Program-made: the position numbers and the translations under genes
Shown here: one piece after another, positions 10,232 through 35,153 of the stretch
Position numbering within the stretch: position 1 is the first letter of the stretch
Layout: each line of letters begins with the position of its first letter
The notes under the pieces: generated by a model
The model's input: the letters and a program-made list of their open reading frames with translations, nothing else
What the model was told of the DNA's origin: nothing
The model's database searches: none
DNA from: Cytophagaceae bacterium
Lineage (GTDB): Bacteria > Bacteroidota > Bacteroidia > Cytophagales > JAIYAX01
Direction of reading: 5' to 3'
NCBI GenBank assembly: GCA_027488815.1
Contig: JAIYAX010000001.1
Span: 62,001 to 126,000, forward strand
DNA: 64,000 nt

Positions 10232-10825
10232 ATGTTAGGAAAAAATACCGCTCCAATCCAATCATCTTCGATAGATCCAGATCATTTATTCGAATGTATC
10301 GCACAAAATGATGATTACAAAGCTTTGGAGCAGCTCTTCAAGCTGTATTACAAGCAGTTGTGTGTGTATGCCCTCAAATACATCCGTAAACCTGAACTTT
10401 GTGAAGAAGCTGTAAGTGATGTTTTTACCCGTATCTGGAGCAATCGCAAGACTATCCTTATTAGTTGCTCAATCAAATCGTACTTGTATATCTCTGTACG
10501 CAATCAGTGTATTGATCTGATACGCAAACGTGGTATGGACACTCATATACCACTTGAGGAACTACACTATGAAGCAGCAGATGCCAGTTATGCTGCCAAT
10601 GCTGGTTTAGAGACACAAGAGCTTGCAGAAGTGATCGAAACAGGCATAGACAAACTCTCCCCCCAATGCAAGATTATATTCAAGTTGAGCCGTGAGGAAG
10701 GAATGAAGTACAAAGACATTGCAAATAAACTTGACATCAGCATCAAAACTGTGGAAACACAGATGGGTAGAGCACTTAAGTCGCTCAGAGCTCATGTAAA
10801 CGGCAAGCTTCCCTTTCATTTGTAA
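10232..10825 (+). CDS. ECF-type RNA polymerase sigma factor
   Basis: 197 residues. Region 2 is visible as ALEQLFKLYYKQLCVYALKY and CEEAVSDVFTRIWSNR (the -10 binding and melting helix), and region 4 as LSPQCKIIFKLSREEGMKYKDIANKLDISIKTVETQM, with its helix-turn-helix. It belongs to the Bacteroidota FecI-like sigma factors that pair with FecR and an STN-domain TonB receptor; both partners follow downstream at 12533 and 13552. It would direct transcription of this locus when the receptor is occupied. The gene stands first in the operon, behind a promoter of the housekeeping type and a double operator, so control may be two-layered. Confidence 0.93.
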   Translation: MLGKNTAPIQSSSIDPDHLFECIAQNDDYKALEQLFKLYYKQLCVYALKYIRKPELCEEAVSDVFTRIWSNRKTILISCSIKSYLYISVRNQCIDLIRKRGMDTHIPLEELHYEAADASYAANAGLETQELAEVIETGIDKLSPQCKIIFKLSREEGMKYKDIANKLDISIKTVETQMGRALKSLRAHVNGKLPFHL

Positions 10826-10879
10826 GGGTACAGCAGCTGTGGCTGCGTCTAAAGGTGTATACCAACAGACGTAGGACGT

Positions 10880-12520
10880 ATGCGCAGCACTGCTCTTTCA
10901 TTTATTCTAGGTTTCGTAGTTGTTTCGGCACTCCTGCTTGCCTGCAACAGAGACGATGAGTTTAAGCCACAAGGGCCACGTACAAGTGTTATTGGTGGCT
11001 CAAGAACCTTAATAATCAGCCTGAATGATACTGCCGAGTTCAATATACTTGCAGAAGCGGTTCGTGGGATTCGCAACATTACAGTAGAACAATCCATTAA
11101 CAATGGCCTAAGACAGCGTTTAACCCAAATCAGCTATGGCCCTGATGCCTTTTCAGTCAACCTTCGTTATACCCTTTTAATTGACAGTTTACAATACTCA
11201 CAATTCGATGAGGTCACTTTGTATTTTACAGGCACTGACAATGAAGGCAACACCACCAATACTTCCACGACGAATTTTCAGATACTGTCGGTGTTTAGTA
11301 AAGTAACGGATACAACTTATTTCAATACTAATTTCAGGATGATCTCAGCCCCAACCGATGGTGCTAAAGGTCTGATACAAGGCGATACCTTTACTATGGA
11401 TGCTGCCACCAACTGGCTGATCAAAGGCACAGTTGAGGTCGATAGAGGTACCACATTGCTTATTGAACCGGGCACCAAAATTTACGGCTTGGTGGGAGAC
11501 CCTTTATCACCTGCTTATTTAAGTCTTTTAGCCGGATCAAAAATTATTGCCCTAGGCGAAAAAGACAATCCCATTGTGTTCACCAGTGACCGAACCTTGG
11601 GCCCTGGTGCAACACCAGGAGATTGGACAGGCGTAAAAATCGAAGGCGAGGCTTCTCTCAATCCTGCAAGCAATTCAGGTCAGATGCGCTATGTAAGGAT
11701 CGAATTTGGAGGTAAAAGTGTTGACTTCCCAAGTGTATTGACAGAAGTAGATGCTGGCCTTCGACTGGCTGAGGTTGGCAACGGTACCGACCTTTCGTAC
11801 CTTCAAGTGTTTCGTAGCAGAGGTCAAGGGTTTCGATTCAATGGAGGAACTGTAAATGCCCGCTATCTGGTTGCAATAGACTGTAACAACAATTGCTTCC
11901 GTATCGATGACGAAGAAGACGAAAACAATGTAAGAATATCGGCATGGACCGGAAAAGGGCAATTTTGGATAGGCTCTACCCCATCAGCGACAGGAGCCTC
12001 TGGCCTTGCAGATATGGATGTACGAGATGGCTCAAACAGTACTCTTGCTAATGTTTCACTCCTTGGCCCAGGTGCAGCGAATACCTCAATAGAAAAAGGC
12101 GGGATACGAATTCGAAATACAATCGGTGGCTATCGTTTTTACAAGTTTCTGGTAGCACATTATGGTTCGTTTAATGCCTGGGGCGTAAGGGCTGATGCGG
12201 CACCTAACCCCCCGACTGGCATCAATGGCTCTAAAGTAGTTGCCCATTCAAGAGTCTACGAAGTGGGCACAGGGCAGTTATTCAGAAACGATGCTGCTGT
12301 TTTTGCAAGTGATCCACAATATGTCAACAGTCAGACACCTATTTCCGGCTCAACTCCTAATCAATTTGTTTTTGCTAATACCTCCGACTTGTTTAACAAC
12401 TTTGATCTGACCACCATAGATCCATGGTTTGTCAATACAAACTATTTAGGTGCCGTCTTTAGCATTGACTGGACAGCAGATGGAAGCTGGTGTAAAAACG
12501 CAGACGGAAGTATTCGCTAA
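10880..12520 (+). CDS. Surface lipoprotein with beta-helix domain
   Basis: 546 residues with a lipoprotein signal ending in ALLLACN. An immunoglobulin-like N-terminal part (about 40-140) is followed by a right-handed beta-helix-like region with repeating GTTLLIEPGTKIYG, GSKIIALGEKDNPIVFTSD, GDWTGVKIEGEA and MRYVRIEFGG strands, typical of Bacteroidota surface proteins often misnamed multidrug transporters. No catalytic motif is seen. It lies between the sigma factor and FecR, where a SusD-like binding lipoprotein might be expected; no SusD is present in the window. A role in binding pectic oligosaccharides at the cell surface for the TonB receptor downstream is inference from position. Confidence 0.75.
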   Translation: MRSTALSFILGFVVVSALLLACNRDDEFKPQGPRTSVIGGSRTLIISLNDTAEFNILAEAVRGIRNITVEQSINNGLRQRLTQISYGPDAFSVNLRYTLLIDSLQYSQFDEVTLYFTGTDNEGNTTNTSTTNFQILSVFSKVTDTTYFNTNFRMISAPTDGAKGLIQGDTFTMDAATNWLIKGTVEVDRGTTLLIEPGTKIYGLVGDPLSPAYLSLLAGSKIIALGEKDNPIVFTSDRTLGPGATPGDWTGVKIEGEASLNPASNSGQMRYVRIEFGGKSVDFPSVLTEVDAGLRLAEVGNGTDLSYLQVFRSRGQGFRFNGGTVNARYLVAIDCNNNCFRIDDEEDENNVRISAWTGKGQFWIGSTPSATGASGLADMDVRDGSNSTLANVSLLGPGAANTSIEKGGIRIRNTIGGYRFYKFLVAHYGSFNAWGVRADAAPNPPTGINGSKVVAHSRVYEVGTGQLFRNDAAVFASDPQYVNSQTPISGSTPNQFVFANTSDLFNNFDLTTIDPWFVNTNYLGAVFSIDWTADGSWCKNADGSIR

Positions 12521-12532
12521 AAGAGATTCACA

Positions 12533-13537
12533 TTGAAAGAAAATGAAATAGACCACAGCCTGGTAGCAAGATACGTGGCCGGTGAGCTGCATGACGAAGA
12601 GCTGGAGTATTTTGAAAAACAGCTTCTAAGCAGACAAGAATATGTGCATGCTGTTTGGGAAGCAACCGTGCTTTTGCGAGGTCGCTCCATTGATCGATTG
12701 TTTGACACAGATAAAGGCCTGGAGAGGTTGAATGTTTCTATTCAGCAGACCCCAACCGAAAAAGGACATAGCAAAAGTGCTTCTCCAATATGGCATCGTA
12801 CGATCAAGTTTGCCGCTGTTTTGATTATAACCCTTATGGGTGTATGGCTTTTTATCACCTTGAATAATCCGGTTCAAAAACCTAAGCCTTCCGTCGCTAT
12901 AGTATCATACAGTACAAGTGATGAGCGTAAACGAATTGTCTTACCAGATAGCTCCTTAGTACAACTAAATTACAATAGTCAGATTTCATTTAGATCTGTC
13001 CAGTTTAGCAAGGATAGGATACTTCACCTGGAGGGAGAAGCCTACTTTGAAGTAAAACCGAGTAAATCTTACCCTTTCAGAGTGCAAACCACTTCGGGTG
13101 TTATATCAGTGTTAGGTACACGTTTTAAAGTAGTGTCATCTCCTCATACTCCTTTTGTCACAGAAGTTTTTCAAGGGAAAGTGGAAGTTAAACCCTATGG
13201 AGATAGTGATCAGACATTCAGCTTAATGGCAGGCCAAGCAATTAAATGGGAGACCGTAGGCCGCTTTTCGTTCTATAACACTGGACTTGATGCCCCAGAA
13301 TGGGTTAGTGGTGTTTTACATTTCGAACAGGCCCCTCTATCAGAAGTCTTTCTTAAGCTTGAAGCATACTACGGCGTCAAGGTGACAGTTAAAGCACCTG
13401 AGTTGTTAGAAAAACGCATCAATGGTACCTACAAACAAGTTCCACTGGAGATAGTACTAAACCAGATTTCAAAGGTATACCCCTTTCAATATGACCTTGA
13501 AAAGGAGTACTTAATCATTAACCCTATTCAGAAGTAA
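12533..13537 (+). CDS. FecR-family anti-sigma factor
   Basis: 334 residues, starting at a TTG (no in-frame ATG occurs in the N-terminal part; the ATG at 12543 is out of frame). The cytoplasmic anti-sigma segment (HSLVARYVAGELHDEELEYFEK) precedes a single membrane helix (FAAVLIITLMGVWLFITL), the FecR beta domain (RKRIVLPDSSLVQLNYNSQI, LEGEAYFEV, VLGTRFKV, FQGKVEV) and the C-terminal DUF4974 domain (APLSEVFLKLEAYYGVKV), which contacts the STN domain of the receptor. It holds the ECF sigma factor at 10232 and releases it when the TonB receptor is loaded. It sits 12 bp after the lipoprotein gene and 14 bp before the receptor gene. Confidence 0.95.
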   Translation: MKENEIDHSLVARYVAGELHDEELEYFEKQLLSRQEYVHAVWEATVLLRGRSIDRLFDTDKGLERLNVSIQQTPTEKGHSKSASPIWHRTIKFAAVLIITLMGVWLFITLNNPVQKPKPSVAIVSYSTSDERKRIVLPDSSLVQLNYNSQISFRSVQFSKDRILHLEGEAYFEVKPSKSYPFRVQTTSGVISVLGTRFKVVSSPHTPFVTEVFQGKVEVKPYGDSDQTFSLMAGQAIKWETVGRFSFYNTGLDAPEWVSGVLHFEQAPLSEVFLKLEAYYGVKVTVKAPELLEKRINGTYKQVPLEIVLNQISKVYPFQYDLEKEYLIINPIQK

Positions 13538-13551
13538 GCCAGAACTATACC

Positions 13552-16500
13552 ATGAAAACATGTCTACAAACAAGTATCGGAGGATTATTGGTTTTGCTGA
13601 TGACTAGCCTTTTGGCACAAGGCAGCCAGAAAAATGGCCTTTCAACAACCCTTATCAAGGTAAAATCCCAACAATACACGATTGCCGGGCTAATCAAAGA
13701 GATTGAAAATCAAACAGAATATGGATTAACCTATGCCGAGGACGAAACTTTTCTACAACGTTCTGTAAACCTAAGCTTCAACACCTATAGTTTGACAGAC
13801 CTTCTGGCTCTGATGTTAGAAGGTACCGGAATGAGTTACAACCATCGGGGCAATTCAATAAGCCTCTATAATTCAGCAATAGTAGCTGGTTCAGCCACTT
13901 TGAGAGGTAAAGTAACAGATGAAATCACAAAAGAAGCTCTTCCTGGAGCAGCTATCTTGATTGAGGGGAGTTCATTAGGTACTGCCACTGATCTTGCTGG
14001 CGATTTCCTATTGCGCTCTGTACCCGAGGACCAGGAAATCTCCCTAAAAGTAACCTACCTTGGATATCAGGAAAAGGTAGTAAAGGTGAGGCTACAGCCC
14101 AAAGAGGTCAAAATATTAAATATCGGTCTGTTGCAGTCTGACAGAATACTTAACGAGGTGGTGGTACAAGCTCAATCAGAAGGACAAGAAAAAGCCCTGA
14201 ACCAGCAAAGAACAGCAGACAACATTAAAAATGTAGTGTCAGCTGATTTGATTGGCCGCTTTCCTGACCTGAACGTGGCTGAAGCTTTGCAAAGAGTTCC
14301 CGGTGTTAACATACAACGATCAAGAGGAGAGGGATCACAAGTATCGCTCAGAGGAACTCCTCTCAACTTCACTACCCTCTCAATCAACGGAGAACAAATA
14401 CCCACCACCAACATCGGTGGTAGCCGGAATGAGGAACTGGACATGATACCCGTAGACCAGCTTTCTAGCATGGAAGTGACCAAATCGACTACTCCCGATA
14501 TGGATGGCGATGCTATTGGTGGAAACATTAACCTTAGAACACAACCTGCTGTGCGCTACAAGCCAAAAATCAAAGCTGAAATAGGCGGTGGCTACAACGA
14601 TATTTCCGGTAACTTCAATGGTATAGGTAAGTTGAGTTATGAACGAAGACTGCTCAAGTCAGAGCGATTTGAAAAGGGTAGAATGGGTGTTAAAGTAGGA
14701 GGCAGTTACTTCCGTACCAACAATGCCAGAGATAGAGTAGAAACGGATGGCCCTACGGGCTGGCAATTGCGCAACTTCAATGGTAATCAAAATGTGATCA
14801 ACGAGTTTGGCACTGATCAGGTTTATGTGTACACCTTATACCGATACCGTGATCTGTTGAATACCCGTACCCGCTCAGGACTTTCGGCAACTGTTGATTA
14901 TAAATTCAATGAAAAAAACGATATCATATTCAATGTGATGTATAGTCGTCGCTCAGACGATGAGCAGGAAGGCCGCACTAGATTTGAAACCCCGGATTTG
15001 AACAACTGGATATCTCCCACCCGCTATGTGAACAACGGCAGAATGCGTAAGGAACTTATCGATCGCTTTAAGCTTAAGCAGAACCTGACTACTAGTGTAG
15101 AAGGTATAAGCCAAGTCGGCAAGTATACACTTGACTATGGTGCTTTTTTCACTTTTACAGAAGACAGAACTGATATCATCCGTGCGCAATGGCGCACTAA
15201 CTCAAATCTTACATTTAACGTAAACAATTTCGGCTCCGACTTTGTCACTTTTTCTACTGAAGGTGCTGATATTCATGATCCTTTTTTATATCCCAACTTC
15301 GCTTCGGTAGCAGAAGATGTAGAACTGGCAATAGGTAAAAACTACCTGGCTCGAATCAACCTCACTAGGGATTACCGATGGAGACGTTTTAATGTACAAG
15401 TGAAAACAGGCGCTAAAGTGCGCTTACTCTCCAACGAAGTAATTCGAAACAACAGACCACAAACTCCAAATCCAGGTTTAGGAATTGGTTTTGTAAACTT
15501 CCTTTCTTCTTTCGAAGACAGCAAATTTATGGATGGAAAAATTCGCTTCGGGCCTACTCCTGATGCAGATAAACTGGGAGCCTGGTTTAGGGAAAACAAT
15601 GGTAATAGTAGTGTATTGGCACCAACTACGAATGATCAGTTTCAAACCGATCGGGATAACAGCACAAATACTTTCGGAACGTTTGAAGACGTTTACGCTG
15701 GCTATGCAATGGTTCGGATGAAGTCAAGTAGAAGCATGTATTTATTTGGTTTACGATTGGAAGCAACAAATGTGGGTTACAACGCTAATCTGATTGATGC
15801 AACAAGCGACCGGGTGAACAGTATTACACCCGTTACCGGAACCAGTACCTACATTATTCCCCTCCCAAATTTTCATTACAAATACTCAATCAATACACTC
15901 ACAAATGTCCGCTTCTCTCTCAACCGCTCCTTCGCTCGTCCGAATTTTATCGAAATAGTACCGAGGGAAATTATCAATCCACTGAATAATGAGATCGAGC
16001 AAGGCAACCCAAACCTTAAACCTCAGGTAGCCACTAACATAGACCTTCTGATTGAAAGATACCTGCCAAGTGTTGGGATTCTATCAGGAGGGATTTTTGC
16101 AAAGCAGATCGACGACTTTATATTCAGAAGTGCTTTACCGCAGGATAGGGTAATCGGCAAAGATGTAAATGGTAACGACAGTACTGAAAGATTTACAGTC
16201 TATCAACCACAAAACGGAAAAACAGCTTACCTATATGGTGCAGAGGTCAATTTGCAAGTACCGCTCACCTTCATGCCTGGCTTCATTAAACGTTTAGATT
16301 TGTTTTTCAACTATACATACACCAATTCAGTTGCAAGCACTCTGCCTTTTCAGATTCCCGGTGGTGTAATTCCTGCACGCACAGGTATACGTTTCCCTGG
16401 TCAGGCACCCCATACTTTCAATGCCGCACTATCCTACAGCCACAAAGGTTTTAGTGCTCGTGCATCTCTCAACTACAATGGAGAGTTTATCGCATTGCTG

Positions 16501-16713
16501 GGTGAGCGCCCGGAGGAAGATGTGTACCGAGCAGGTCGCTTTCAACTTGATCTAAACGCAGCGTATAGCTTTAAGAAACACTATCGTGTTTTTGGAGAAA
16601 TCATCAATCTCACTAATCAGTCTCAAGTTGACTTTTTAGGGCTTCGTAGTAGAATAACCAATGTGGAATTTTATGGCCTCATCGCCCGCTTTGGAGTGGG
16701 CCTTAATTTCTAA
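13552..16713 (+). CDS. STN-domain TonB-dependent outer membrane receptor
   Basis: 1053 residues. After a signal peptide come an STN signalling domain (about 35-105, TIAGLIKEIENQTEYGLTY), a carboxypeptidase-D-like domain (about 120-200, LRGKVTDEITKEALPGAAIL), the plug (about 210-330, LIGRFPDLNVAEALQRVPGV, EVTKSTTPDMDGDAIGGNIN) and a 22-strand barrel ending in ...ARFGVGLNF with the usual C-terminal aromatic. The plug is of the type named TonB-Xanth-Caul rather than SusC. The STN domain marks it as a transducing receptor for the FecR and sigma factor upstream. Likely ligand: pectin-derived oligo- or monouronates, from the genes that follow at 1 bp spacing. No TonB box could be assigned with certainty. 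Confidence 0.93.
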   Translation: MKTCLQTSIGGLLVLLMTSLLAQGSQKNGLSTTLIKVKSQQYTIAGLIKEIENQTEYGLTYAEDETFLQRSVNLSFNTYSLTDLLALMLEGTGMSYNHRGNSISLYNSAIVAGSATLRGKVTDEITKEALPGAAILIEGSSLGTATDLAGDFLLRSVPEDQEISLKVTYLGYQEKVVKVRLQPKEVKILNIGLLQSDRILNEVVVQAQSEGQEKALNQQRTADNIKNVVSADLIGRFPDLNVAEALQRVPGVNIQRSRGEGSQVSLRGTPLNFTTLSINGEQIPTTNIGGSRNEELDMIPVDQLSSMEVTKSTTPDMDGDAIGGNINLRTQPAVRYKPKIKAEIGGGYNDISGNFNGIGKLSYERRLLKSERFEKGRMGVKVGGSYFRTNNARDRVETDGPTGWQLRNFNGNQNVINEFGTDQVYVYTLYRYRDLLNTRTRSGLSATVDYKFNEKNDIIFNVMYSRRSDDEQEGRTRFETPDLNNWISPTRYVNNGRMRKELIDRFKLKQNLTTSVEGISQVGKYTLDYGAFFTFTEDRTDIIRAQWRTNSNLTFNVNNFGSDFVTFSTEGADIHDPFLYPNFASVAEDVELAIGKNYLARINLTRDYRWRRFNVQVKTGAKVRLLSNEVIRNNRPQTPNPGLGIGFVNFLSSFEDSKFMDGKIRFGPTPDADKLGAWFRENNGNSSVLAPTTNDQFQTDRDNSTNTFGTFEDVYAGYAMVRMKSSRSMYLFGLRLEATNVGYNANLIDATSDRVNSITPVTGTSTYIIPLPNFHYKYSINTLTNVRFSLNRSFARPNFIEIVPREIINPLNNEIEQGNPNLKPQVATNIDLLIERYLPSVGILSGGIFAKQIDDFIFRSALPQDRVIGKDVNGNDSTERFTVYQPQNGKTAYLYGAEVNLQVPLTFMPGFIKRLDLFFNYTYTNSVASTLPFQIPGGVIPARTGIRFPGQAPHTFNAALSYSHKGFSARASLNYNGEFIALLGERPEEDVYRAGRFQLDLNAAYSFKKHYRVFGEIINLTNQSQVDFLGLRSRITNVEFYGLIARFGVGLNF

Positions 16714-17520
16714 ATGATGACTTACAAGGAAGAGCTTGTAGTAGTGACAGGCGGTACAGGTGTATTAGGCAGTACGATGGCAGCTCATATGCTTGCTGGA
16801 GGTGCTAAAGTAGCCATATTGGGAAGAAACGAAGAAGTTGGACTATCTTTAGTAAGTGACTGGAAAGCAAAAGGATATATAGCTCGCTTTGAAAAAACTG
16901 ATGTATTGCAAGAAGCTGAAGTAGAAGCCTCGATCACAAACATTCAAAAAGACTGGGGTTCGATAAGTTTGCTTGTAAATGCTGCCGGCGGCAATAAACC
17001 CGGTGCGACCATTCAACCGGCTCAAGCGTTTTCAGATTTAGGTATTCAGGATTTTGATGAAGTGGTGCAATTGAACCTCAGCGGTACGGTAATTCCATCA
17101 AAAGTATGCTTGAGACACATGGTAGCTGCTGGGAAGGGACACATCATCAACATTTCCTCTATGGCAGCTGAGCGACCACTTACCAGGGTAGTAGGCTATG
17201 GGGCAGCAAAGGCTGCAATCAACAACTTTAGCCGTTGGCTTGCTGTTGAGTGTGCTCAAAAATATGGTGAGCAAATAAGGATTAATGCCATAGCCCCAGG
17301 TTTTTTTGTAACTGAGCAAAACAAAACATTGCTTCTGAACAGCGACGGCAGCCCTACCGCACGAGGCATGAAGATACTTGAACATACTCCCTTCAAACGA
17401 TTCGGCAGGCCGGAGGAGTTGCTTTCCACACTTGATTGGCTTTGCCACCCTGGTTCTTCTTTCATTACAGGTGTGGTAGTGCCGGTGGATGGCGGGTTTA
17501 GCGCCTTTGCAGGAGTATGA
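16714..17520 (+). CDS. SDR oxidoreductase, probable D-mannonate/fructuronate reductase
   Basis: 268 residues, classical short-chain dehydrogenase. NAD(P) site TGGTGVLG, NAAGG, catalytic Ser in NISSMAAE and YGAAK (Tyr-x3-Lys); C-terminal TGVVVPVDGGFSAF is standard. It directly follows the TonB receptor and precedes uxuA by 8 bp. The Gram-positive UxuB (YjmF) reduces fructuronate to mannonate and is an SDR; that substrate is expected here because UxuA needs mannonate and no long-chain UxuB is present. Function is therefore family plus context, not proven by residues. Two starting ATGs, 16714 and 16717. Confidence 0.85.
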   Translation: MMTYKEELVVVTGGTGVLGSTMAAHMLAGGAKVAILGRNEEVGLSLVSDWKAKGYIARFEKTDVLQEAEVEASITNIQKDWGSISLLVNAAGGNKPGATIQPAQAFSDLGIQDFDEVVQLNLSGTVIPSKVCLRHMVAAGKGHIINISSMAAERPLTRVVGYGAAKAAINNFSRWLAVECAQKYGEQIRINAIAPGFFVTEQNKTLLLNSDGSPTARGMKILEHTPFKRFGRPEELLSTLDWLCHPGSSFITGVVVPVDGGFSAFAGV

Positions 17521-17528
17521 TTTAACAA

Positions 17529-18734
17529 ATGAGCCGATTGCATATGAATCCTACTTCAGCCATTGCTTTACTTGAACAAACCTGGCGTTGGTTTGGCCCT
17601 GATGACCCTGTGCCTTTAAACCATATTCGTCAGGCGGGAGCGACTGGAATTGTCACTGCCTTGCATCATATACCCAATGGAGAGGTATGGACAGTTGAAG
17701 AAGTAAGAAAAAGAAGGAAGCTAATTGAAGCCGCAGGGCTGCAATGGAGTGTCGTCGAAAGTATACCAGTTCATGAGGCGATTAAGCAGGGCAAGCCAGA
17801 AGCAAGCCGTTACATTCATCAATACATACAATCACTACTAAATCTGGCATCTGAAGGTATCAAAATAGTTACTTACAACTTTATGCCGGTGCTTGACTGG
17901 ACCCGTACTAATCTGGCCTATGAACTTCCTGACGGTTCGCTTGCACTTCGTTTCGACCAGGTTGACTTCGTTTGCTTTGATGTATTCCTCCTCAAACGAA
18001 AAGGAGCAGAGGCTACCTATCCTGAAAATTTACTAGCCAAGGCCAGACAACAGTATGACCGGCTCACCAACCATGAAAAAGACCAGCTGATCATTACGGT
18101 ATTAGCTGGGTTACCTGGGGCAGAAGAGGGCTATACCTTAACCCAATTTAAAAACCTAATACAAGCTTACCAATCTGTTGGTGAGGAAGGGTTAAGAGAG
18201 CATTTGTACCAGTTTGTTAAAACCATAGCTGCGGTAGCTTCGGAGCAATCCATGCGGCTGGCTATTCATCCCGACGATCCCCCCTACCCTATCCTGGGCT
18301 TACCAAGAGTGGTAAGTACTGAAGAGGATGTAGTTCGGTTGTATAGTGCTACTACTGATCCTGCCAATGGTTTATGCTTTTGTACAGGCTCATTTGGAGT
18401 TAGGCCTGATAATGATCTTCCTGGTATGGTGAATAGATTGGGGCATCGCATCCATTTCGTCCACCTGCGAAATACAACTCTCGAGGCTGATGGGAGCTTT
18501 TTTGAAGCCGATCACTTGGGTGGTGATACCGATATGTTTGCGGTAATGAAGGCTTTGATAGAAACAGCAAAACAAAGAAAGGTAACCTTACCCTTTCGCC
18601 CTGACCATGGTCATCAAATGCTGGATGACCTGAATAAGAAGACCAATCCTGGGTATAGTGCCATTGGAAGGCTTAGGGGACTAGCTGAGCTAAGAGGCCT
18701 GGCTTTGGGCATAAGCAGATCTATCCAACAGTGA
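17529..18734 (+). CDS. uxuA: Mannonate dehydratase
   Basis: 401 residues, the family length. It removes water from D-mannonate to give 2-keto-3-deoxygluconate (KDG), in the cytosol. Family signatures are visible: LEQTWRWFGPDDPVPLNHIRQAGATGIVTALHH near the N-terminus, the metal-binding region LAIHPDDPPYPILGLPRVVST, CFCTGSFGVRPDNDLPGMV, and FVHLRN with HPDDP and PDHGH. The start could also be the ATG at 17544, which would remove five residues. It belongs to the glucuronate arm along with the SDR upstream. Confidence 0.96.
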   Translation: MSRLHMNPTSAIALLEQTWRWFGPDDPVPLNHIRQAGATGIVTALHHIPNGEVWTVEEVRKRRKLIEAAGLQWSVVESIPVHEAIKQGKPEASRYIHQYIQSLLNLASEGIKIVTYNFMPVLDWTRTNLAYELPDGSLALRFDQVDFVCFDVFLLKRKGAEATYPENLLAKARQQYDRLTNHEKDQLIITVLAGLPGAEEGYTLTQFKNLIQAYQSVGEEGLREHLYQFVKTIAAVASEQSMRLAIHPDDPPYPILGLPRVVSTEEDVVRLYSATTDPANGLCFCTGSFGVRPDNDLPGMVNRLGHRIHFVHLRNTTLEADGSFFEADHLGGDTDMFAVMKALIETAKQRKVTLPFRPDHGHQMLDDLNKKTNPGYSAIGRLRGLAELRGLALGISRSIQQ

Positions 18735-18735
18735 C

Positions 18736-19959
18736 ATGATGAATCGAAAAGATTTTCTTAAAAAAAGCTTGTTGGGTGCCAGTGCGCTTCCACTGCTAGG
18801 TAGTATGGCCTTGCCAGGGATTGCGACTACGCTTCCAGATAAGTATGGCTCAAATGCTCCTGTAAAAATCACAGCTGTGAAAGCGTATGTGATGAAAAAG
18901 GCATTGTATGTAAAAGTAGAAACCGATGCGGGTGTGTCGGGCTGGGGCGAAGGAAGCCATGACAACATCACTTTAACAGCACAGGCAATTGATCAATACA
19001 TTGCGCCCAAAGTAAAAGGTCGAGACCCTTTTCACTCCGAATACCTATGGCAATGGCTATACTTTAGCGAAGAAGATATTGGCCAGTCAGGATTATGGCC
19101 AGGAGCACTAGCAGGCTTTGACAATGCTCTATGGGATCTGAAAGGTAAATTACTTGGCCTTCCCGTACACAAGCTACTGGGAGGTGCCGGTATTGAAAAA
19201 GTAAAAGTGTATGGAAGTTTTGCCCGTGGTGAAGGTAAAAAGGTGCTTTCAGACCTTGAACTCGCCAAACAAGCCGAAACCTTCATTTCACAGGGGATCG
19301 ATACTCTAAAGCTGAGAATGCAAATAAGGCTTCTCAATGTGGATCCTGAGCCGGATCCAACATTTGAAACCATAAAGCAACTAAGGAAAGCCATAGGAGA
19401 CAATATCACTTTGTTTGTAGACTTTAACAATGGCTATCGGGCTTCAAAAGCAATCACATTAGCCAATAAACTGTATGAGTACTGCAACATAGCTGCAGTT
19501 GAAGAACCTGTAAGCTATCAGACTTATGATGACCTTGCCCAGGTAGTAGATGCTGTATCGATACCTGTAATGGCGGGTGAGCATGAATACAACCGCTGGC
19601 AATTTCGTGACCTGATTATAAGAGGAAAAGCGGATGTTCTAAACGTAGACCTTATCAAAGCAGGCGGGCTGTCAGAAAGTCTTAAAATAGCTCATATGGC
19701 TTCCGCTTTTGATAGGCCAGTGATGGTTCACAATGCAAGACCGACCTATTGCACTGCCACATCACTACAGTTGATAGCTGCTATTAGCAATTTAGCACGT
19801 GTACAAGAGTACACAGGCAGTCGTCCTGAATTAGAGCTTGGCAACCTCTTTCAAAACAGCATTGACTTTGCCAATGGCTACTTGAGCGTGCCACAGATAC
19901 CCGGCATGGGTCTCATTCCTGATGAACAAGCTATGGAAAAAAACAAACTCAATAAATAG
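18736..19959 (+). CDS. Enolase-superfamily (mandelate racemase group) dehydratase, exported
   Basis: 407 residues. A signal-type N-terminus (RKDFLKKSLLGASALPLLGS) precedes the enolase-superfamily capping domain and TIM barrel. Visible active-site residues: Lys in DTLKLRMQ (K-x-R rather than the usual K-x-K), metal ligands Asp in LFVDFNNG, Glu in VEEPVSY and Glu in AGEHEYN, and the His of VMVHNARP. The pattern is nearest to galactonate dehydratase-like members of the MR subgroup, which remove water from sugar acids. A twin-arginine pair is not present (RK), so the export route is uncertain. Substrate unknown, but uronic or aldonic acids are expected from the neighbours. Confidence 0.8.
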   Translation: MMNRKDFLKKSLLGASALPLLGSMALPGIATTLPDKYGSNAPVKITAVKAYVMKKALYVKVETDAGVSGWGEGSHDNITLTAQAIDQYIAPKVKGRDPFHSEYLWQWLYFSEEDIGQSGLWPGALAGFDNALWDLKGKLLGLPVHKLLGGAGIEKVKVYGSFARGEGKKVLSDLELAKQAETFISQGIDTLKLRMQIRLLNVDPEPDPTFETIKQLRKAIGDNITLFVDFNNGYRASKAITLANKLYEYCNIAAVEEPVSYQTYDDLAQVVDAVSIPVMAGEHEYNRWQFRDLIIRGKADVLNVDLIKAGGLSESLKIAHMASAFDRPVMVHNARPTYCTATSLQLIAAISNLARVQEYTGSRPELELGNLFQNSIDFANGYLSVPQIPGMGLIPDEQAMEKNKLNK

Positions 19960-19962
19960 CTC

Positions 19963-21360
19963 ATGCACTTCATACATGACCAATTTTTGCTGCCCAATGC
20001 AACTTCTCAACAGCTATACCACCGCTATGCTGCCTTAAGTCCAATTATCGATTACCATTGTCACCTCTCACCTAAAGACATAGCCGAAGACAGAAGATTT
20101 AATAACCTGACAGAAGCCTGGCTGGAGGGTGATCACTACAAATGGAGGGCAATGCGCACCTATGGCATCAGTGCGGATTACATCACTGGTAGCCGAAGTT
20201 CCTTTGAAAAATTCGAAAAGTGGGCTGAAGTAGTGCCCCATACGTTGCGTAATCCACTTTACCACTGGACACACCTTGAGCTAGCTCGCTATTTCGGCAT
20301 TTACGACCTGCTCAATATGGAAAATGCCAAGTACATTTATGATACAGCAAACGCCATTCTTCAAACACCTGCATACTCTGTAAGGGGTTTACTCAAGAAA
20401 ATGGGGGTACAGGTAGTGTGTACTACCGATGATCCTACTGATGATCTTTCTTACCACAGGTCGATTGCATCTTCAGATTTTGAGATTAAAGTATTGCCTG
20501 CTTTCAGGCCTGACAAAGTGCTTGCAACTGATCAGCCAGAATTGTTCAACGGCTGGGTAAACCGGCTCTATACCCTTTGTGAGCTCTCCATAAGCACCTT
20601 ATCGGACCTTATGGAATGCCTTGAAAAGCGAGTGTTGTTTTTCCATCAGCAGGGTTGCCGACTCAGTGATCATGGTCTGGAGTATGCCTATGCTTATTAT
20701 CCTCCTCAGCAAGACTGGGATCGCTTGGTGCTAGCCTTACGAAATGGTAGTAGCCTTAGCAAGTTGGAAAGTGAAGCTCTGAGAAGTGAAATTCTCTTTA
20801 GACTGTGTAAGCTATATCATAAGTATGGCTGGGTGCAGCAGTTCCATTTAGGAGCACTTCGAAACAACAACACCAGAATGCTGGAAACGCATGGGCCAGA
20901 CACAGGCTTTGACAGCATTGGAGACTTCGATCAAGCCACATCCCTAAGTGCATTGCTCAACCGACTTGATAAAGACAACGCTCTGGCGCCAAGCATTCTT
21001 TATAACCTAAACCCAGCTGACAATGAAGTATTTGCAACTATGACGGGCAACTTCAACGATGGCAGCATCAAAGGGAAGATACAGTACGGTTCTGGCTGGT
21101 GGTTTCTGGATCAAAAGGACGGAATGACCAAACAACTTAATGCACTCTCTAACATGGGGCTGCTTTCCTGCTTTGTAGGTATGCTTACTGATAGCCGCAG
21201 TTTTCTCTCCTATCCAAGGCATGAATACTTCCGTAGAGTACTCTGCCGTCTGCTGGGCGAGGAAATAGAAGCCGGAGAACTACCTCGTGATATAGACTTA
21301 ATCGGCAACATGGTTCAAGACATCTGCTTTCGTAATGCGAAAGCTTATTTTAAATTCTAA
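19963..21360 (+). CDS. uxaC: Uronate isomerase
   Basis: 465 residues, normal length. It converts D-galacturonate to tagaturonate and D-glucuronate to fructuronate, the entry step for both arms. Motifs of the family are intact: IDYHCHLSPKDIAEDRRFNNL with the metal-binding His-x-His, VCTTDDPTDDL, KVLPAFRPD, FHLGALRNNNTRM, and LSYPRHEYFRRVLCRLLGEE near the end. It starts 3 nt after the preceding stop. Confidence 0.98.
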   Translation: MHFIHDQFLLPNATSQQLYHRYAALSPIIDYHCHLSPKDIAEDRRFNNLTEAWLEGDHYKWRAMRTYGISADYITGSRSSFEKFEKWAEVVPHTLRNPLYHWTHLELARYFGIYDLLNMENAKYIYDTANAILQTPAYSVRGLLKKMGVQVVCTTDDPTDDLSYHRSIASSDFEIKVLPAFRPDKVLATDQPELFNGWVNRLYTLCELSISTLSDLMECLEKRVLFFHQQGCRLSDHGLEYAYAYYPPQQDWDRLVLALRNGSSLSKLESEALRSEILFRLCKLYHKYGWVQQFHLGALRNNNTRMLETHGPDTGFDSIGDFDQATSLSALLNRLDKDNALAPSILYNLNPADNEVFATMTGNFNDGSIKGKIQYGSGWWFLDQKDGMTKQLNALSNMGLLSCFVGMLTDSRSFLSYPRHEYFRRVLCRLLGEEIEAGELPRDIDLIGNMVQDICFRNAKAYFKF

Positions 21361-21390
21361 TTCATTGTATCCCAAACGAAACATTTATAC

Positions 21391-22434
21391 ATGACCCAAG
21401 GAAAAACAGTAGTCACATTCGGAGAAATCATGTTAAGGCTTTCTACGCCTGGTTTTCAACGCATTCAACAGGCCAATCACTTCAATGTGCATTTTGGAGG
21501 GGGTGAAGCCAATGTTGCGGTATCACTTGCCAACTATGGAGTAAATACTCAATTTGTTACCCGCCTTCCAGACAATGATGTTGGAGCTTATGCAAGGAAA
21601 ACTCTTCATTTCTACGGTGTTGGTACACAGCACGTTCAAATCGGAGGTGAAAGACTAGGCATATATTTTCTCGAGACAGGAGCTGTTGCACGAGCCAGTA
21701 AAGTGATTTATGACAGGGCTTATTCAGCCATCTCAACTATAAAACCTGGAATGGTACCCTGGAAGGAAGTTTTCAAAAATGCTTCATGGTTTCACTGGAC
21801 AGGTATCACACCTGCTCTTTCCCAAAGTGCAGCTGATGCTTGTCTGGAAGCCATTCAGGTAGCCAATGAAATGGGTGTTACCGTGAGTTGTGATCTCAAC
21901 TTCCGGAAAAATTTGTGGAAATACGGTAAAAAAGCAGGTGAGGTAATGCCTGAACTTGTAGCCGGATGCGACATTATTCTGGGTAACGAAGAAGATGCTG
22001 AGACTGTATTTGACATTAAACCAGAAGGATATGATGTTACCAAGGGTCATGCTTCAGCTGATGAGTTTCGTTCGGTATGCGCTCAGTTGATGCAGAAATT
22101 TTCCCGAGCTAAAAAAGTGATCATCACACTAAGAGGATCAGTAAGTGCATCGCATAACACATGGAGTGGTGTGTTATTCAATGGTAACCAATTGTATGAA
22201 ACAGCCACTTATCCTATAACGCATATTGTAGATAGGGTTGGTGGGGGCGACAGCTTTATGGGTGGGCTTATTTATGGACTTATGCAATATCCAGGTGATG
22301 ATCAAAAAGCACTTGATTTTGCAGTTGCAGCCAGTTGTCTCAAGCACACCATTGAGGGTGACTTCAATCAGGTAACTACGGATGAAGTAGTCAAGCTGAT
22401 GAGCGGAGACGCCTCAGGCAGAGTATCCAGATGA
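21391..22434 (+). CDS. kdgK: 2-keto-3-deoxygluconate kinase (PfkB family)
   Basis: 347 residues. It phosphorylates KDG to 2-keto-3-deoxy-6-phosphogluconate. The N-terminal FGEIMLRLSTPGFQRI and GGGEANVAVSLANYG are typical of KDG kinases; the C-terminal PfkB signature DRVGGGDSFMGGLIYG carries the anion hole and the catalytic Asp. It is in the middle of the operon and feeds the aldolase gene 17 bp downstream. Confidence 0.95.
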   Translation: MTQGKTVVTFGEIMLRLSTPGFQRIQQANHFNVHFGGGEANVAVSLANYGVNTQFVTRLPDNDVGAYARKTLHFYGVGTQHVQIGGERLGIYFLETGAVARASKVIYDRAYSAISTIKPGMVPWKEVFKNASWFHWTGITPALSQSAADACLEAIQVANEMGVTVSCDLNFRKNLWKYGKKAGEVMPELVAGCDIILGNEEDAETVFDIKPEGYDVTKGHASADEFRSVCAQLMQKFSRAKKVIITLRGSVSASHNTWSGVLFNGNQLYETATYPITHIVDRVGGGDSFMGGLIYGLMQYPGDDQKALDFAVAASCLKHTIEGDFNQVTTDEVVKLMSGDASGRVSR

Positions 22435-22451
22435 CCAAGAACTAAACAGAT

Positions 22452-23129
22452 ATGGCTAGATTTTCACGCATTCAAACCGCTCTTGCAATGGCGGATACTG
22501 GGTTAGTTCCAGTGTTTTACCATACCGACTATTCTGTGTGCCTTGATGTAGTTCGTGCCTGCTACAAAGGTGGAGTGAGGGTATTTGAGTTCACCAATAG
22601 AGGTGATTTTGCACATGAATTATTTGGCAGGCTTATCAAAGAAGCACAATCAGAAATGCCGGAGCTGCTACTTGGTGTAGGAAGCATACAGGATGAAGGT
22701 ACAGCAGCACTTTATATTCAATGCGGTGCACAATTCATCGTAGCCCCTTCCTTAAATCCTGCTGTAGCCAGAGTATGCAATAGGCGAAAAGTACTTTGGG
22801 TACCCGGATGTGGCAGCGTGAGTGAAATAGGGCAGGCTGAAGAACTGGGGGCAGAAATTGTAAAGATCTTCCCAGGGGCACAAGTTGGAGGACCAAAGTT
22901 TGTTGAGGCAGTAAAAGGTCCAATGCCTTGGACGAGCATCATGCCAACAGGTGGAGTAGAACCCAATGAGGCCAGTTTAAAGCCCTGGTTTTTGGCAGGT
23001 GTCACATGTGTAGGGATCGGTAGTCAGCTCATAACCAAAGAGGTCATTGCCCGCAATGATTGGAATGGCCTCAGCAATTCAGTAAAAGAGTGCCTTAACC
23101 TGATCAGTAGTTTTCAAAATAAGGCTTGA
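22452..23129 (+). CDS. eda: KDPG aldolase
   Basis: 225 residues. It cleaves 2-keto-3-deoxy-6-phosphogluconate into pyruvate and glyceraldehyde-3-phosphate. The class-I aldolase Lys is in EIVKIFPGAQVGGPKFV; the Glu of the site is in GGVRVFEFTNRG, and SIMPTGGVEPNEA holds the phosphate. It ends the Ashwell route. Five bases separate it from the next gene. Confidence 0.96.
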   Translation: MARFSRIQTALAMADTGLVPVFYHTDYSVCLDVVRACYKGGVRVFEFTNRGDFAHELFGRLIKEAQSEMPELLLGVGSIQDEGTAALYIQCGAQFIVAPSLNPAVARVCNRRKVLWVPGCGSVSEIGQAEELGAEIVKIFPGAQVGGPKFVEAVKGPMPWTSIMPTGGVEPNEASLKPWFLAGVTCVGIGSQLITKEVIARNDWNGLSNSVKECLNLISSFQNKA

Positions 23130-23133
23130 AACC

Positions 23134-24396
23134 ATGTCTTCGAGCAGAAGAAACTTTATTCAAACGTGTAGCTTAGCAGGTATTTCCACCATTTTACCTT
23201 GGTCCGCTTACGGCAAGCCGACAGAGGAATTAAGTGAACGATATAAGCGGCTTGATGAGGCATTGGTGAAACCGGTTCTGCTTCTTCAAGACTTTAAAAG
23301 TCCTGTTATCATCGAGTCGGTAGATCTGCTCAGGTTCAAAGAAAGTTTCATTTGCAGAGTACGCTCAAAAGAAGGTGCAGAAGGTATATGCATTTGCAAC
23401 AATGATCAGATGCTTAGCCTTTATGCCTTTTTCGTGCATAGGGTTGCTCCCTTTTTTATCGGAAAAGATGCTCTTATGCTTGAGCAACTTATCGAGGAAG
23501 TATATGTGCATGAAAGCAATTACAAATTCCAAAGCCCCGCCCTGTGGTTGCCGGTGGCCACCTTGGAGTTCGCTGTGTTGGATTTATTGGGGAAAATTGC
23601 TCAAAAGCCTATTTGGGCACTGCTGGGGGCACTCGAGCGTAAGTCGGTTCATGTATATAGAGCTACCAATTATAGGGGGTTGAGTGCAGAAAGCTCCATA
23701 GAAAAGATAAAAAACGTAGTGGCTGAGACAGATGCAAAAGCCGTAAAGTTCAAAATAGGTGGTCGTATGAGTCAGAACAGGGACTTTCCAGCAGACCGCA
23801 CTGAAAAACTCATACCGCTCATGCGTGAGACCTTTGGAAATGAGATGGTCATCTATGCAGACAGTAATGGCTCTTACGATGTATCTGAAGCTGTTCGAAT
23901 TGGCAGGCTATTGGAAGAATACAATATCGCATTCTATGAAGAACCGGTACCTTTTGATTGGTACCAGGAAACAAAAGAAGTCAAAAGAAACTTGCGGATA
24001 CCCGTTGCAGGAGGTGAGCAGGAAGGTAGCTTACGCAATTTTCGCTGGTTGATCGCTGAAAATGCACTTGATGTTTTGCAGCCTGACCTATTTTATTTTG
24101 GAGGAATGGTTCGATCCATGAAAGTGGCACGAATGGCATCTGCTTTGGGGAAAGTATGTACCCCACATATCAGCGGAAATGGAGTTGGCTACCTCTATAT
24201 GTTACATTTCGTTGCTGCATGCCCCAATGCAGGCCCCTTTCATGAATTCAAGGGCTTTTCAAAAGACCTCCCATTGGAAGCACCCGAAGAGGTAACTAGT
24301 ACTATCAAGGGCGAAGTACAAGTACCAAAGGGCTCCGGACTGGGGGTAAATTTGGACAAAGACTTTTTAGCAAAACATACAGTGATAAAGCCGTAG
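23134..24396 (+). CDS. Second enolase-superfamily enzyme, Tat-type signal
   Basis: 420 residues. The N-terminus SSSRRNFIQTCSLAG is a good twin-arginine motif, so it is probably moved folded to the periplasm. The barrel has a complete MR-subgroup site: KFK (AVKFKIGG), Asp in IYADSNGSYD, Glu in YEEPVPF, Glu in AGGEQEG and His in TPHISGNG. Glucarate-type members lack this His position; this set fits acid-sugar dehydratases or racemases/epimerases. It differs strongly from the enzyme at 18736, so it is a separate activity rather than a recent duplicate. It is the last catabolic gene before the inserted RloA/RloB pair. Substrate unknown. Confidence 0.8.
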   Translation: MSSSRRNFIQTCSLAGISTILPWSAYGKPTEELSERYKRLDEALVKPVLLLQDFKSPVIIESVDLLRFKESFICRVRSKEGAEGICICNNDQMLSLYAFFVHRVAPFFIGKDALMLEQLIEEVYVHESNYKFQSPALWLPVATLEFAVLDLLGKIAQKPIWALLGALERKSVHVYRATNYRGLSAESSIEKIKNVVAETDAKAVKFKIGGRMSQNRDFPADRTEKLIPLMRETFGNEMVIYADSNGSYDVSEAVRIGRLLEEYNIAFYEEPVPFDWYQETKEVKRNLRIPVAGGEQEGSLRNFRWLIAENALDVLQPDLFYFGGMVRSMKVARMASALGKVCTPHISGNGVGYLYMLHFVAACPNAGPFHEFKGFSKDLPLEAPEEVTSTIKGEVQVPKGSGLGVNLDKDFLAKHTVIKP

Positions 24397-24486: not shown

Positions 24487-25869
24487 ATGCTCCTTCGATT
24501 TGGAATTGAGAATTTTTTGTCTTTCAAAGGCAAGCAAATCTTTTCGTTGCTCCCGGGTAAGTCAACCCTAAAAGCTGAACATAAGTCAACAAGTATAAAT
24601 GGAGTATCTGCACTCAAGATTGCCGCAGTATATGGTGCTAACGCCTCAGGCAAGTCAAATCTGATCAAAGCGATTGACTTTGGTCGGGAGAAAGTACTAA
24701 AAGGTACTGGACCTGAGCAACTGATCACCTCCGATTTTTTTAAACTTGATGTAGGATATAATGGGAAACCTGTTGTCATCGAGTATGAATTCGCTCATAA
24801 AGGACATAATTACGCTTACGGATTTAAGGCAAGTAGTAGAGAAGTACTTAGCGAATGGTTGTACTTGCTTCGAAAGACATCACAAACTAAAGTTTTTGAA
24901 CGCAGCAACACGATTGATTTTGACTTGAGTTATCTGCTCAAAAAAAATAAACATAAAAAACAAGCTCAGTACATCGAATTTGTTTCCAAGAGTACTCCAA
25001 GAAATCAACTTTTTTTGACACAAATTATAAATACGAATATGAATGATCATGTCTCGGATATATCTGAGCTGCATGATGCTTTAGATTGGTTTCGAAATGC
25101 ACTTACAGTTGTTTATCCTGGTTCAAAAAACGTTCACAAACATTTTGAACTCAATGACAATACAGACCTCAAACAGGTATTCCTTGAGATGTTAGATTAT
25201 TTCGACACAGGTATTGACGGAATTGAGTTTGAAGAAGTAGATTTCGATAAATCAGACATTCCTGACACAGTTAAGAATGAACTAATGCAGATATTATTAA
25301 ATGATAAATCTGAAAAAACAAGTACTTTTTTAGCTAATCCAAATGAAGACAAGTATTACATTGTTTCAAAAGGAACGAACCAATTACTCACTGCAAAAAT
25401 ATTAAAAACAATACACAAAGTTTCGGGTGGAACATCAGAATTGTTTGATTTGGCACATGAGTCTGATGGCACTCGTCGAATGATGGATTTGATCCCTTTG
25501 GTGATTGATTTTTACAAAGGAGGAAATGTATTTGTTGTAGATGAAATAGAGCGTAGCCTTCACCCTAATTTGGTAAAAGATCTTTTGGATTTTATATTGG
25601 AAAGGTGTTCAAATATTAACAGTCAACTCATTTTTTCAACTCATGAGGCTACACTTATGACTCAGAAAGTATTGAGAAAAGATGAAATTTGGTTTTCGGT
25701 AAAAAATGAAGAAGGAGCTACTCAACTGCATTCGCTTGAAGACTACACCGTTCGATTTGACAAGGAACTTATGAAAGACTATTTACTTGGTCGGTACAAA
25801 GGAGTCCCAAGATTAGGAAACAGACGTAATTTGTCTGTTTTGCCTAAAATTCAAGAGGATTATGCCTAG
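24487..25869 (+). CDS. RloA-like AAA ATPase (AAA15/OLD-type ABC ATPase)
   Basis: 460 residues. Walker A is GANASGKS at 50-57, preceded by RFGIENFLSFKGKQ, the typical start of AAA15 proteins; Walker B is FVVDEIERSLHP, and the sensor His follows in FSTHEATLM. Such ATPases pair with a TOPRIM-type nuclease in defence systems (AbiL, and related to PARIS AriA/AriB). The next gene, overlapping at the end, is a RloB remnant. The ATPase itself is intact. The segment is visibly more AT-rich than its neighbours and splits the uronate operon between the second enolase-type gene and the transporter, so it is probably a recent insertion (inference). Confidence 0.88.
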   Translation: MLLRFGIENFLSFKGKQIFSLLPGKSTLKAEHKSTSINGVSALKIAAVYGANASGKSNLIKAIDFGREKVLKGTGPEQLITSDFFKLDVGYNGKPVVIEYEFAHKGHNYAYGFKASSREVLSEWLYLLRKTSQTKVFERSNTIDFDLSYLLKKNKHKKQAQYIEFVSKSTPRNQLFLTQIINTNMNDHVSDISELHDALDWFRNALTVVYPGSKNVHKHFELNDNTDLKQVFLEMLDYFDTGIDGIEFEEVDFDKSDIPDTVKNELMQILLNDKSEKTSTFLANPNEDKYYIVSKGTNQLLTAKILKTIHKVSGGTSELFDLAHESDGTRRMMDLIPLVIDFYKGGNVFVVDEIERSLHPNLVKDLLDFILERCSNINSQLIFSTHEATLMTQKVLRKDEIWFSVKNEEGATQLHSLEDYTVRFDKELMKDYLLGRYKGVPRLGNRRNLSVLPKIQEDYA

Positions 25870-26530: not shown

Positions 26531-26594
26531 GATCCCTGATTTACCGTAAGGGGACAGGCTCTGTTCTGCGTCTTTGAAATCATACACCTTCTTC

Positions 26595-27929: not shown

Positions 27930-27931
27930 GG

Positions 27932-33723: not shown

Positions 33724-33752
33724 AGAGTATAAGACGAAGGCTTAGAGAAATA

Positions 33753-33768
33753 CCCTTATTCGTAAGGG
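33753..33768. promoter_or_regulatory. Perfect 6-bp hairpin in the divergent promoter region
   Basis: CCCTTA and TAAGGG flank TTCG, forming a compact hairpin or a 16-bp palindrome, between the starts of the toroid-type protein gene (33723) and the GntP gene (33816). Its place makes a shared operator plausible; function is unknown. Confidence 0.35.
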
Positions 33769-33815
33769 AAAAGCATCTTTCTTCCGTCATTGATAAAAAC
33801 TACTTTCGCCTCCAC

Positions 33816-35144: not shown

Positions 35145-35153
35145 ACCACTGCT

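Follow-up and report, generated by a model that had tools for sequence, protein, structure and literature searches.

Several described outer-membrane systems encode a TonB-dependent receptor together with a surface lipoprotein. SusCD pairs, found in glycan loci, combine a SusC/RagA-type receptor (TIGR04056) with an adjoining SusD-family lipoprotein. In BtuB–BtuG of Bacteroides, the receptor's partner is a non-SusD surface lipoprotein, a seven-bladed β-propeller that binds vitamin B12, and capped transporters of this kind are said to seem exclusive to Bacteroidetes (PMC10404256). Caulobacter crescentus ElpS (CC0170) is an extracellular outer-membrane lipoprotein, encoded beside the TonB-dependent receptor CC0171, that belongs to the phosphate-starvation response, undergoes cleavage and T2SS-dependent release and has no phosphatase activity of its own (PMC2996285). 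In Flavobacterium johnsoniae, the lipoproteins FI (Fjoh_3856) and FII (Fjoh_0546), members of the phosphate regulon, adjoin the receptors Fjoh_3857 and Fjoh_0545; Lidbury et al. found both to be polygalacturonase-like by modelling, with FII listed under IPR011050, and FI to exceed all other exoproteins in abundance when phosphate is limiting (PMC8115612). Finally, the FecI–FecR–FecA system, which serves iron uptake, consists of an ECF sigma factor, FecR and an STN receptor, and its FecA/FecR signalling route has been described (PMC11658791).

Here we analyse a locus within a 64,000-nt stretch of DNA from a Cytophagaceae bacterium (the window). We propose, with a probability of roughly 0.6 and on the basis of sequence and structure models, that it encodes a FecIR-regulated importer of oligo-uronides in which a β-helix lipoprotein, instead of SusD, is the candidate substrate-capture protein.

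A regulated uptake unit in a uronate operon

As the first-pass annotation had it, positions 10232–16713 carry genes for a sigma factor, a lipoprotein, a FecR regulator and an STN/TonB receptor, in that order. They lie head to tail on the + strand with intergenic gaps of 54, 12 and 14 nt, and profile searches support these identities. The ECF sigma factor (10232–10825, 197 aa) matches Sig70_bacteroi1 (TIGR02985) at 162.2 bits, above the cut-off of 126.4, as well as Sigma70_r2 and r4_2. After the lipoprotein gene (10880–12520, 546 aa) comes that of the FecR-type anti-sigma regulator (12533–13537, 334 aa, with a TTG start as listed), which exceeds the cut-offs of both PF04773 (66.7 bits) and PF16344 (53.2 bits). 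The short gaps suggest that sigma factor and FecR are co-transcribed in one unit.

The stop codon of the receptor gene (13552–16713, 1053 aa) directly abuts the uronate-catabolism genes, with a gap of zero, and the operon runs on. On the + strand, profile matches identify a D-mannonate oxidoreductase-type SDR, UxuA, an MR_MLE enzyme, UxaC, KDG kinase and KDPG aldolase (16714–23129), then a second MR_MLE-family enzyme (23134–24396, PF13378) and an MFS permease with a GH28 polygalacturonase-family enzyme (26574–29413; PF07690, PF00295). Further along lie an altronate/galactarate dehydratase-type gene on the + strand and a mannitol-dehydrogenase-type, tagaturonate-reductase-like gene on the − strand (29394–32464; PF20629, PF08125), a GntP permease with a glycerate kinase (33597–36272, + strand; PF02447, PF02595) and, identified by profile scan, a second GH28 enzyme with a GH2 enzyme (37702–41808, − strand). 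The substrate is probably oligogalacturonides or other uronate-containing oligosaccharides.

The receptor and lipoprotein are not a SusCD pair

That the usual SusCD pair is replaced at this locus is borne out for both partners. The receptor matches TIGR01782 at 466.2 bits (cut-off 310), against 77.6 bits for the SusC model TIGR04056 (cut-off 368.25), and comprises an STN domain (residues about 34–106), CarbopepD_reg_2 (118–205), a plug (221–324) and a β-barrel (about 339–1052). In its AlphaFold model (pLDDT 78.9), the barrel resembles FecA (Z 39.5) and BtuB, the closest solved barrels among tied rows of the matches listed; the BtuB matches include B. thetaiotaomicron BtuB1, solved with its lipoprotein BtuG1 (Z 37.8). 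SusC structures are absent from the matches listed for this model, which by itself excludes nothing. A SusD homologue beyond the window edge would have changed this picture, and we looked for one in the upstream flank and in the whole genome, finding none near the locus: PF07980 and PF14322 each match once in the genome, in the same open reading frame, which lies on contig C29 beside a Plug-domain receptor. The locus thus resembles SusCD in placing a surface lipoprotein with a CarbopepD_reg_2-carrying receptor in a glycan locus, and differs in the type of both proteins.

The lipoprotein begins with the lipobox LLAC, its Cys22 being followed by NRDDE, an acidic stretch that, under published surface-exposure rules for lipoproteins (PMC6222051 covers such motifs), suggests a position on the outer face of the membrane. 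It continues with an Ig-like domain (29–137), a right-handed β-helix (143–490) and a C-terminal GA...DWT...W signature; AlphaFold models the two folds with confidence (pLDDT 89.0 and pTM 0.80 for the protein). As in BtuB–BtuG, then, a putatively exposed non-SusD lipoprotein is encoded with a receptor of similar barrel fold, although a β-helix takes the place of the propeller.

The lipoprotein family is paired with TonB-dependent receptors

We compared 47 distinct loci encoding the lipoprotein family: 31 genome-search matches, 14 named loci and 2 own loci. A peptide-pattern scan of contigs, which used one pattern only and is not a full survey, gave 23 loci, 9 of which were taken as duplicates of loci already in the set and counted once. 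In this set, where most loci were picked as best matches and not at random, a same-strand TonB-dependent receptor lies beside the lipoprotein gene in 44 of the 47, within 300 nt in 39, and upstream of it in 41. The three loci lacking a receptor are L059 (a 3 kb contig), L065 and L067. All 46 other paired lipoproteins are matched by that of the window in blastp (weakest E 1.2e-14), whereas none of 177,635 PDB sequences is at E ≤ 1, so the similarity goes beyond that of generic β-helices; the C-terminal signature is common to 43 of the 47. Receptor and lipoprotein tree distances are correlated across 47 pairs (r 0.905; permutation maximum 0.23), though at only 0.44 within the 10 uronate-type pairs. 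Left out of the trees were L059, L065 and L087, which lack a full receptor, together with L067 and regions L055 and L056.

This tight one-to-one gene pairing across phyla bears on an unlikely though still credible alternative, in which the lipoprotein is an accessory glycan-binding or released scavenging protein that is co-regulated with the receptor and never contacts it. Such a role would suit the release of ElpS into the medium (PMC2996285) and the standing of FI as top exoprotein under phosphate limitation (PMC8115612); the consistent pairing argues against it. We tentatively place ElpS and FI in the family of the window lipoprotein by gene layout and these reports. In both cases, as in the window, a lipoprotein is encoded together with a TonB-dependent receptor, and FI and FII show this for Bacteroidota. 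The settings differ: FI and FII belong to the phosphate regulon and the window lipoprotein to a uronate locus, and the sections on ElpS mention no FecIR or uronate genes. No pho genes occur among the scanned neighbours of the four-gene unit, these being uronate genes.

The locus was originally flagged as an unusual architecture for Bacteroidota, which holds in part. Pairs of receptor and β-helix lipoprotein are common and partly in print (PMC8115612, PMC2996285): homologues of the lipoprotein are present in 206 of 291 genomes from the same order and in a large share of the Bacteroidota genomes sampled. The unusual features here are confined to the order of the genes and their connection to a uronate operon. 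Close relatives of the window's lipoprotein type turn up in just 11 of 390 genomes from this order, including its own; a search within the same family returned only the window's own genome. We recognised no FecIR-linked β-helix lipoprotein in a uronate locus in the open-licence literature, which is weak evidence. GH28 or uronate-catabolism genes accompany 8 of the 10 loci of the window's type (the window among them), whereas the wider family is not uronate-specific, with relatives beside purple-acid-phosphatase, melibiase-like and GH2 genes.

A predicted β-helix related in fold to uronate-polymer enzymes

Neither Pfam nor NCBIfam profiles match the lipoprotein, and three relatives likewise have no match in Pfam. 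Foldseek gave weak hits to its model (best E 3.6e-4), mostly short matches to the Ig domain; a second-look structure aligner supplied the β-helix matches, the best of which are the uronate-polymer enzymes AlgE4 (Z 23.6, rmsd 3.6 over 285 residues, for residues 143–490) and AlgG. As enzymes make up most of its fold neighbours (AlgE4, AlgG, alginate lyase, GH28, pectate lyase), the lipoprotein could be a surface-tethered enzyme that acts on uronate polymers as a lyase, hydrolase or epimerase, and not a binding protein, as the polygalacturonase-based modelling of the F. johnsoniae relatives would also suggest (PMC8115612). We consider this improbable: no enzyme family profile matches the lipoprotein, many relatives have unrelated genes as neighbours, and ElpS showed no phosphatase activity of its own (PMC2996285). 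A GH28 identity in particular was rejected, there being no PF00295 match at E ≤ 0.01, which leaves room for other β-helix catalysis. GH28 enzymes carry the motif set NTD, DD, G-H/S-G and RIK; its absence as a set from the lipoprotein says little, as the pattern is also incomplete in the window's two true GH28 enzymes.

Predicted signalling follows the receptor

The STN match of the receptor (25.1 bits) falls just below the Pfam cut-off of 28.4, and those of L068, from the cultured Thermoflexibacter ruber, and L071 also score below it; the AlphaFold model of the window's receptor places a separate α/β domain at about residues 34–100. All five receptors with a FecR gene have an STN domain, compared with none of five receptors of the same type without one. 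As in FecI–FecR–FecA, an ECF sigma factor and FecR thus accompany an STN receptor; the window differs in having a lipoprotein gene inside the regulatory unit and a sugar-acid operon in place of iron uptake. Judged by sequence, signalling tracks the STN domain of the receptor, not the lipoprotein, since lipoprotein–receptor pairs occur with or without sigma/FecR genes and most lack a FecR match. The earlier suggestion that the lipoprotein both binds substrate and takes part in sigma/anti-sigma signalling, which drew on its gene lying between those of sigma factor and FecR, is the least probable reading and was discarded on gene order: in all four other FecR-containing loci (four of five overall) the lipoprotein gene follows the receptor gene, marking its position here as a local rearrangement. 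Moreover, the lipoprotein is predicted to lie on the outer face, whereas the periplasm and inner membrane are where FecR works.

A candidate mechanism and a wider class

In the FecIR-regulated importer that we favour, the lipoprotein would be a partner of the receptor, not a signalling component, binding substrate along its β-helix and passing it on, either as a BtuG-like lid or as a tethered binding protein. That it does the binding job of SusD, as first suggested, is reasonable for the partner of a receptor in a uronate/pectin locus. Import would be powered by TonB, and the STN domain of the loaded receptor would contact FecR, freeing the sigma factor to transcribe the operon with its uronate enzymes. 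Oligosaccharides may be trimmed by the GH28 and GH2 enzymes, with the products carried inward by the MFS or GntP permease. Because one subtype is tied to uronate genes and so has a candidate substrate, the question of whether the lipoprotein partners the receptor becomes directly testable. Homologues of the lipoprotein are widespread, yet our scans matched it to neither a Pfam nor an NCBIfam model and its printed relatives have no defined mechanism.

More tentatively, and at somewhat less than even odds, β-helix lipoproteins with a C-terminal GA...DWT..GW signature may serve as dedicated caps for TonB-dependent transporters of a widespread class that differs from both SusCD and BtuBG and spans Bacteroidota and Proteobacteria, of which the window would hold the oligo-uronide, FecIR-regulated form. 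Lid-based capture by lipoproteins would then be limited neither to SusD-like proteins nor to Bacteroidota, contradicting the statement that capped transporters seem exclusive to Bacteroidetes (PMC10404256). The release of ElpS from the cell is ill-suited to a permanent lid (PMC2996285). The gene layout of ElpS recurs in Indioceanicola (L094), where a relative matching the window lipoprotein at E 7e-19 is encoded with a receptor and a T2SS.

A receptor–lipoprotein pair under predicted FecIR-type control

The first-pass annotation had described a signal-transducing uptake system of four genes, and all four were found on the forward strand: an ECF sigma factor (10232–10825), a lipoprotein (10880–12520), FecR (12533–13537) and a TIGR01782 TonB-dependent receptor (13552–16713), separated by gaps of 54, 12 and 14 nt. 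The gene after the receptor starts without any gap, and the genes downstream constitute a hexuronate pathway, with a D-mannonate oxidoreductase-type SDR, UxuA, UxaC, KDG kinase and KDPG aldolase, accompanied by two MR_MLE enzymes, an MFS permease and GH28. Further along come an altronate-type dehydratase, a mannitol-dehydrogenase-type enzyme, GntP and glycerate kinase, and a second GH28 and a GH2 end the run, within which also lies an AAA_21 ATPase-type gene (24487–25869). The 3.37-Mb genome, in which the window lies on contig C10, has 23 plug-domain matches (22 above the cut-off), two FecR genes and only one SusD ORF, on contig C29.

Conservation of the pair

We compared 47 distinct loci, mainly best matches rather than a random sample: 31 from genome searches, 14 further loci, the own-genome paralogue and the window. 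In 44 a receptor gene shares the lipoprotein's strand; 39 loci have it at most 300 nt away, and it precedes the lipoprotein in 41 and follows it in three (L051, L062 and the window). No receptor was seen in L059 (a 3-kb contig), L065 or L067. In the paralogue pair on contig C8 (L004:9161–13718), a beta-helix lipoprotein directly follows the receptor, and no FecR was found beside it. Plasmid records from Alteromonas, Pseudoalteromonas and Indioceanicola also contain a lipoprotein relative, located there before a TonB-dependent receptor; in a Parabacteroides record it comes after one. In Alteromonas and Pseudoalteromonas (L091:5127–9197 and L095:7900–11988) the protein before the receptor has about 1,360 residues; the Alteromonas relative is downstream of phoB/phoR, and a TonB/ExbBD-type set follows its receptor.

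The window lipoprotein has a match to each of the other 46 proteins in the set, and 43 of the 47 have a common C-terminal signature (GA...DWT...W), the exceptions being L047, L052, L054 and L061. By eye, the ends of three proteins (L052:9470–11155, L054:9929–11611 and L061:3189–4787) instead resemble type IX secretion tails. Receptor and lipoprotein tree distances correlate at 0.905 (47 pairs) and 0.858 (23 pairs), values inflated by shared ancestry, and at only 0.44 for ten uronate-type pairs. Of 291 genomes of the order, 206 carry a homologue (E ≤ 1e-6), and 252 of 395 in a class sample give a profile match (E ≤ 1e-25). At E ≤ 1e-60, close window-type relatives turn up less often, in 11 of 390 genomes of the order and in 4 of 395 of a phylum sample, the window's own included in each.

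Predicted fold and proposed mechanism

The window lipoprotein has no match in Pfam, NCBIfam or PDB sequences. Its lipobox ends at Cys22, and it is predicted to be surface-exposed because the NRDDE that follows resembles the Bacteroidota export motifs K-(D/E)2 and CS(D/E)2, as described in PMC6222051. In its AlphaFold model (34 input sequences; pLDDT 89.0, pTM 0.80), residues 143–490 match right-handed beta-helix proteins, among them AlgE4 (Z 23.6, r.m.s.d. 3.6, 285 aligned), AlgG (21.8, 2.9, 262), an alginate lyase (19.9, 3.8, 257) and a GH28 exopolygalacturonase (14.3, 3.3, 272), and residues 29–137 match an Ig-like domain (9kvu; 11.4, 2.1, 93). The third-ranked match is a phage tailspike; a fold in common does not establish function.

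We propose that the lipoprotein would capture oligo-uronides at the cell surface, as either a lid or a tethered binder, and hand them over to the receptor for TonB-driven import; signalling from STN through FecR to sigma would then induce the operon, by analogy with FecA (PMC11658791). Among tied rows, the modelled receptor barrel is closest to FecA (Z 39.5) and BtuB, and its matches include BtuB1 solved with the lipoprotein BtuG1 (Z 37.8).

Receptors with such lipoproteins are a kind already published, without a defined mechanism. Caulobacter ElpS (CC0170), produced under phosphate starvation, is encoded beside the TonB-dependent receptor CC0171 and ahead of T2SS genes (PMC2996285); Flavobacterium johnsoniae FI and FII adjoin TBDTs, are strongly induced on phosphate depletion and are reported as homologous to a low-phosphate-inducible Caulobacter lipoprotein (PMC8115612). 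Gene layout and these published descriptions suggest that ElpS and FI are related to the window lipoprotein. ElpS is reportedly released from cells, which speaks against a permanent lid in its lineage. In our search of open-licence papers, we found no description of a uronate-linked version under FecIR control in which sigma and fecR flank the lipoprotein gene.

Signalling and substrate

FecR lies near the lipoprotein in five distinct loci: the window, L035 (=L068), L038 (=L071; FecR here on the opposite strand), L073 and L076. In all but the window, the lipoprotein follows the receptor. Every one of these five receptors has an STN match (three scoring below the Pfam cut-off), but five receptors of the same type that lack FecR (L069, L070, L072, L074 and L081) gave none, and FecR-associated receptors are scattered in the receptor tree; FecIR control has thus been gained and lost along with the STN domain, the lipoprotein remaining with the receptor. 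At the genome's second FecR locus (L055:5633–12807, contig C4), the sigma and FecR genes are accompanied by genes for a 647-aa protein whose STN domain stands alone, a receptor in which no STN was called, and a DUF4249 protein; here the signalling domain may have split off onto a separate protein.

A uronate substrate is assigned to the window-type pair from gene context. With phmmer, GH28 or uronate-catabolism genes were found in eight of the ten uronate-type loci (the window, L068–L074, L076 and L081) and not in L071 (a 7-kb contig) or L073; Pfam confirmed GH28 in the two checked, L068 and L076. Two lipoproteins in tandem are found in a sister group (Capnocytophaga, Tannerella, Proteiniphilum, Belliella, Sphingobacterium and others), whose neighbours in the three loci scanned (L079, L084 and L085) include a hybrid two-component regulator as well as GH2 proteins and others resembling purple acid phosphatases and melibiases. 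Given these differing neighbours, the substrate probably differs between the groups. The cluster of two tandem beta-helix lipoproteins after a receptor recurs in L075, L077–L080, L082–L086 and L088–L090.
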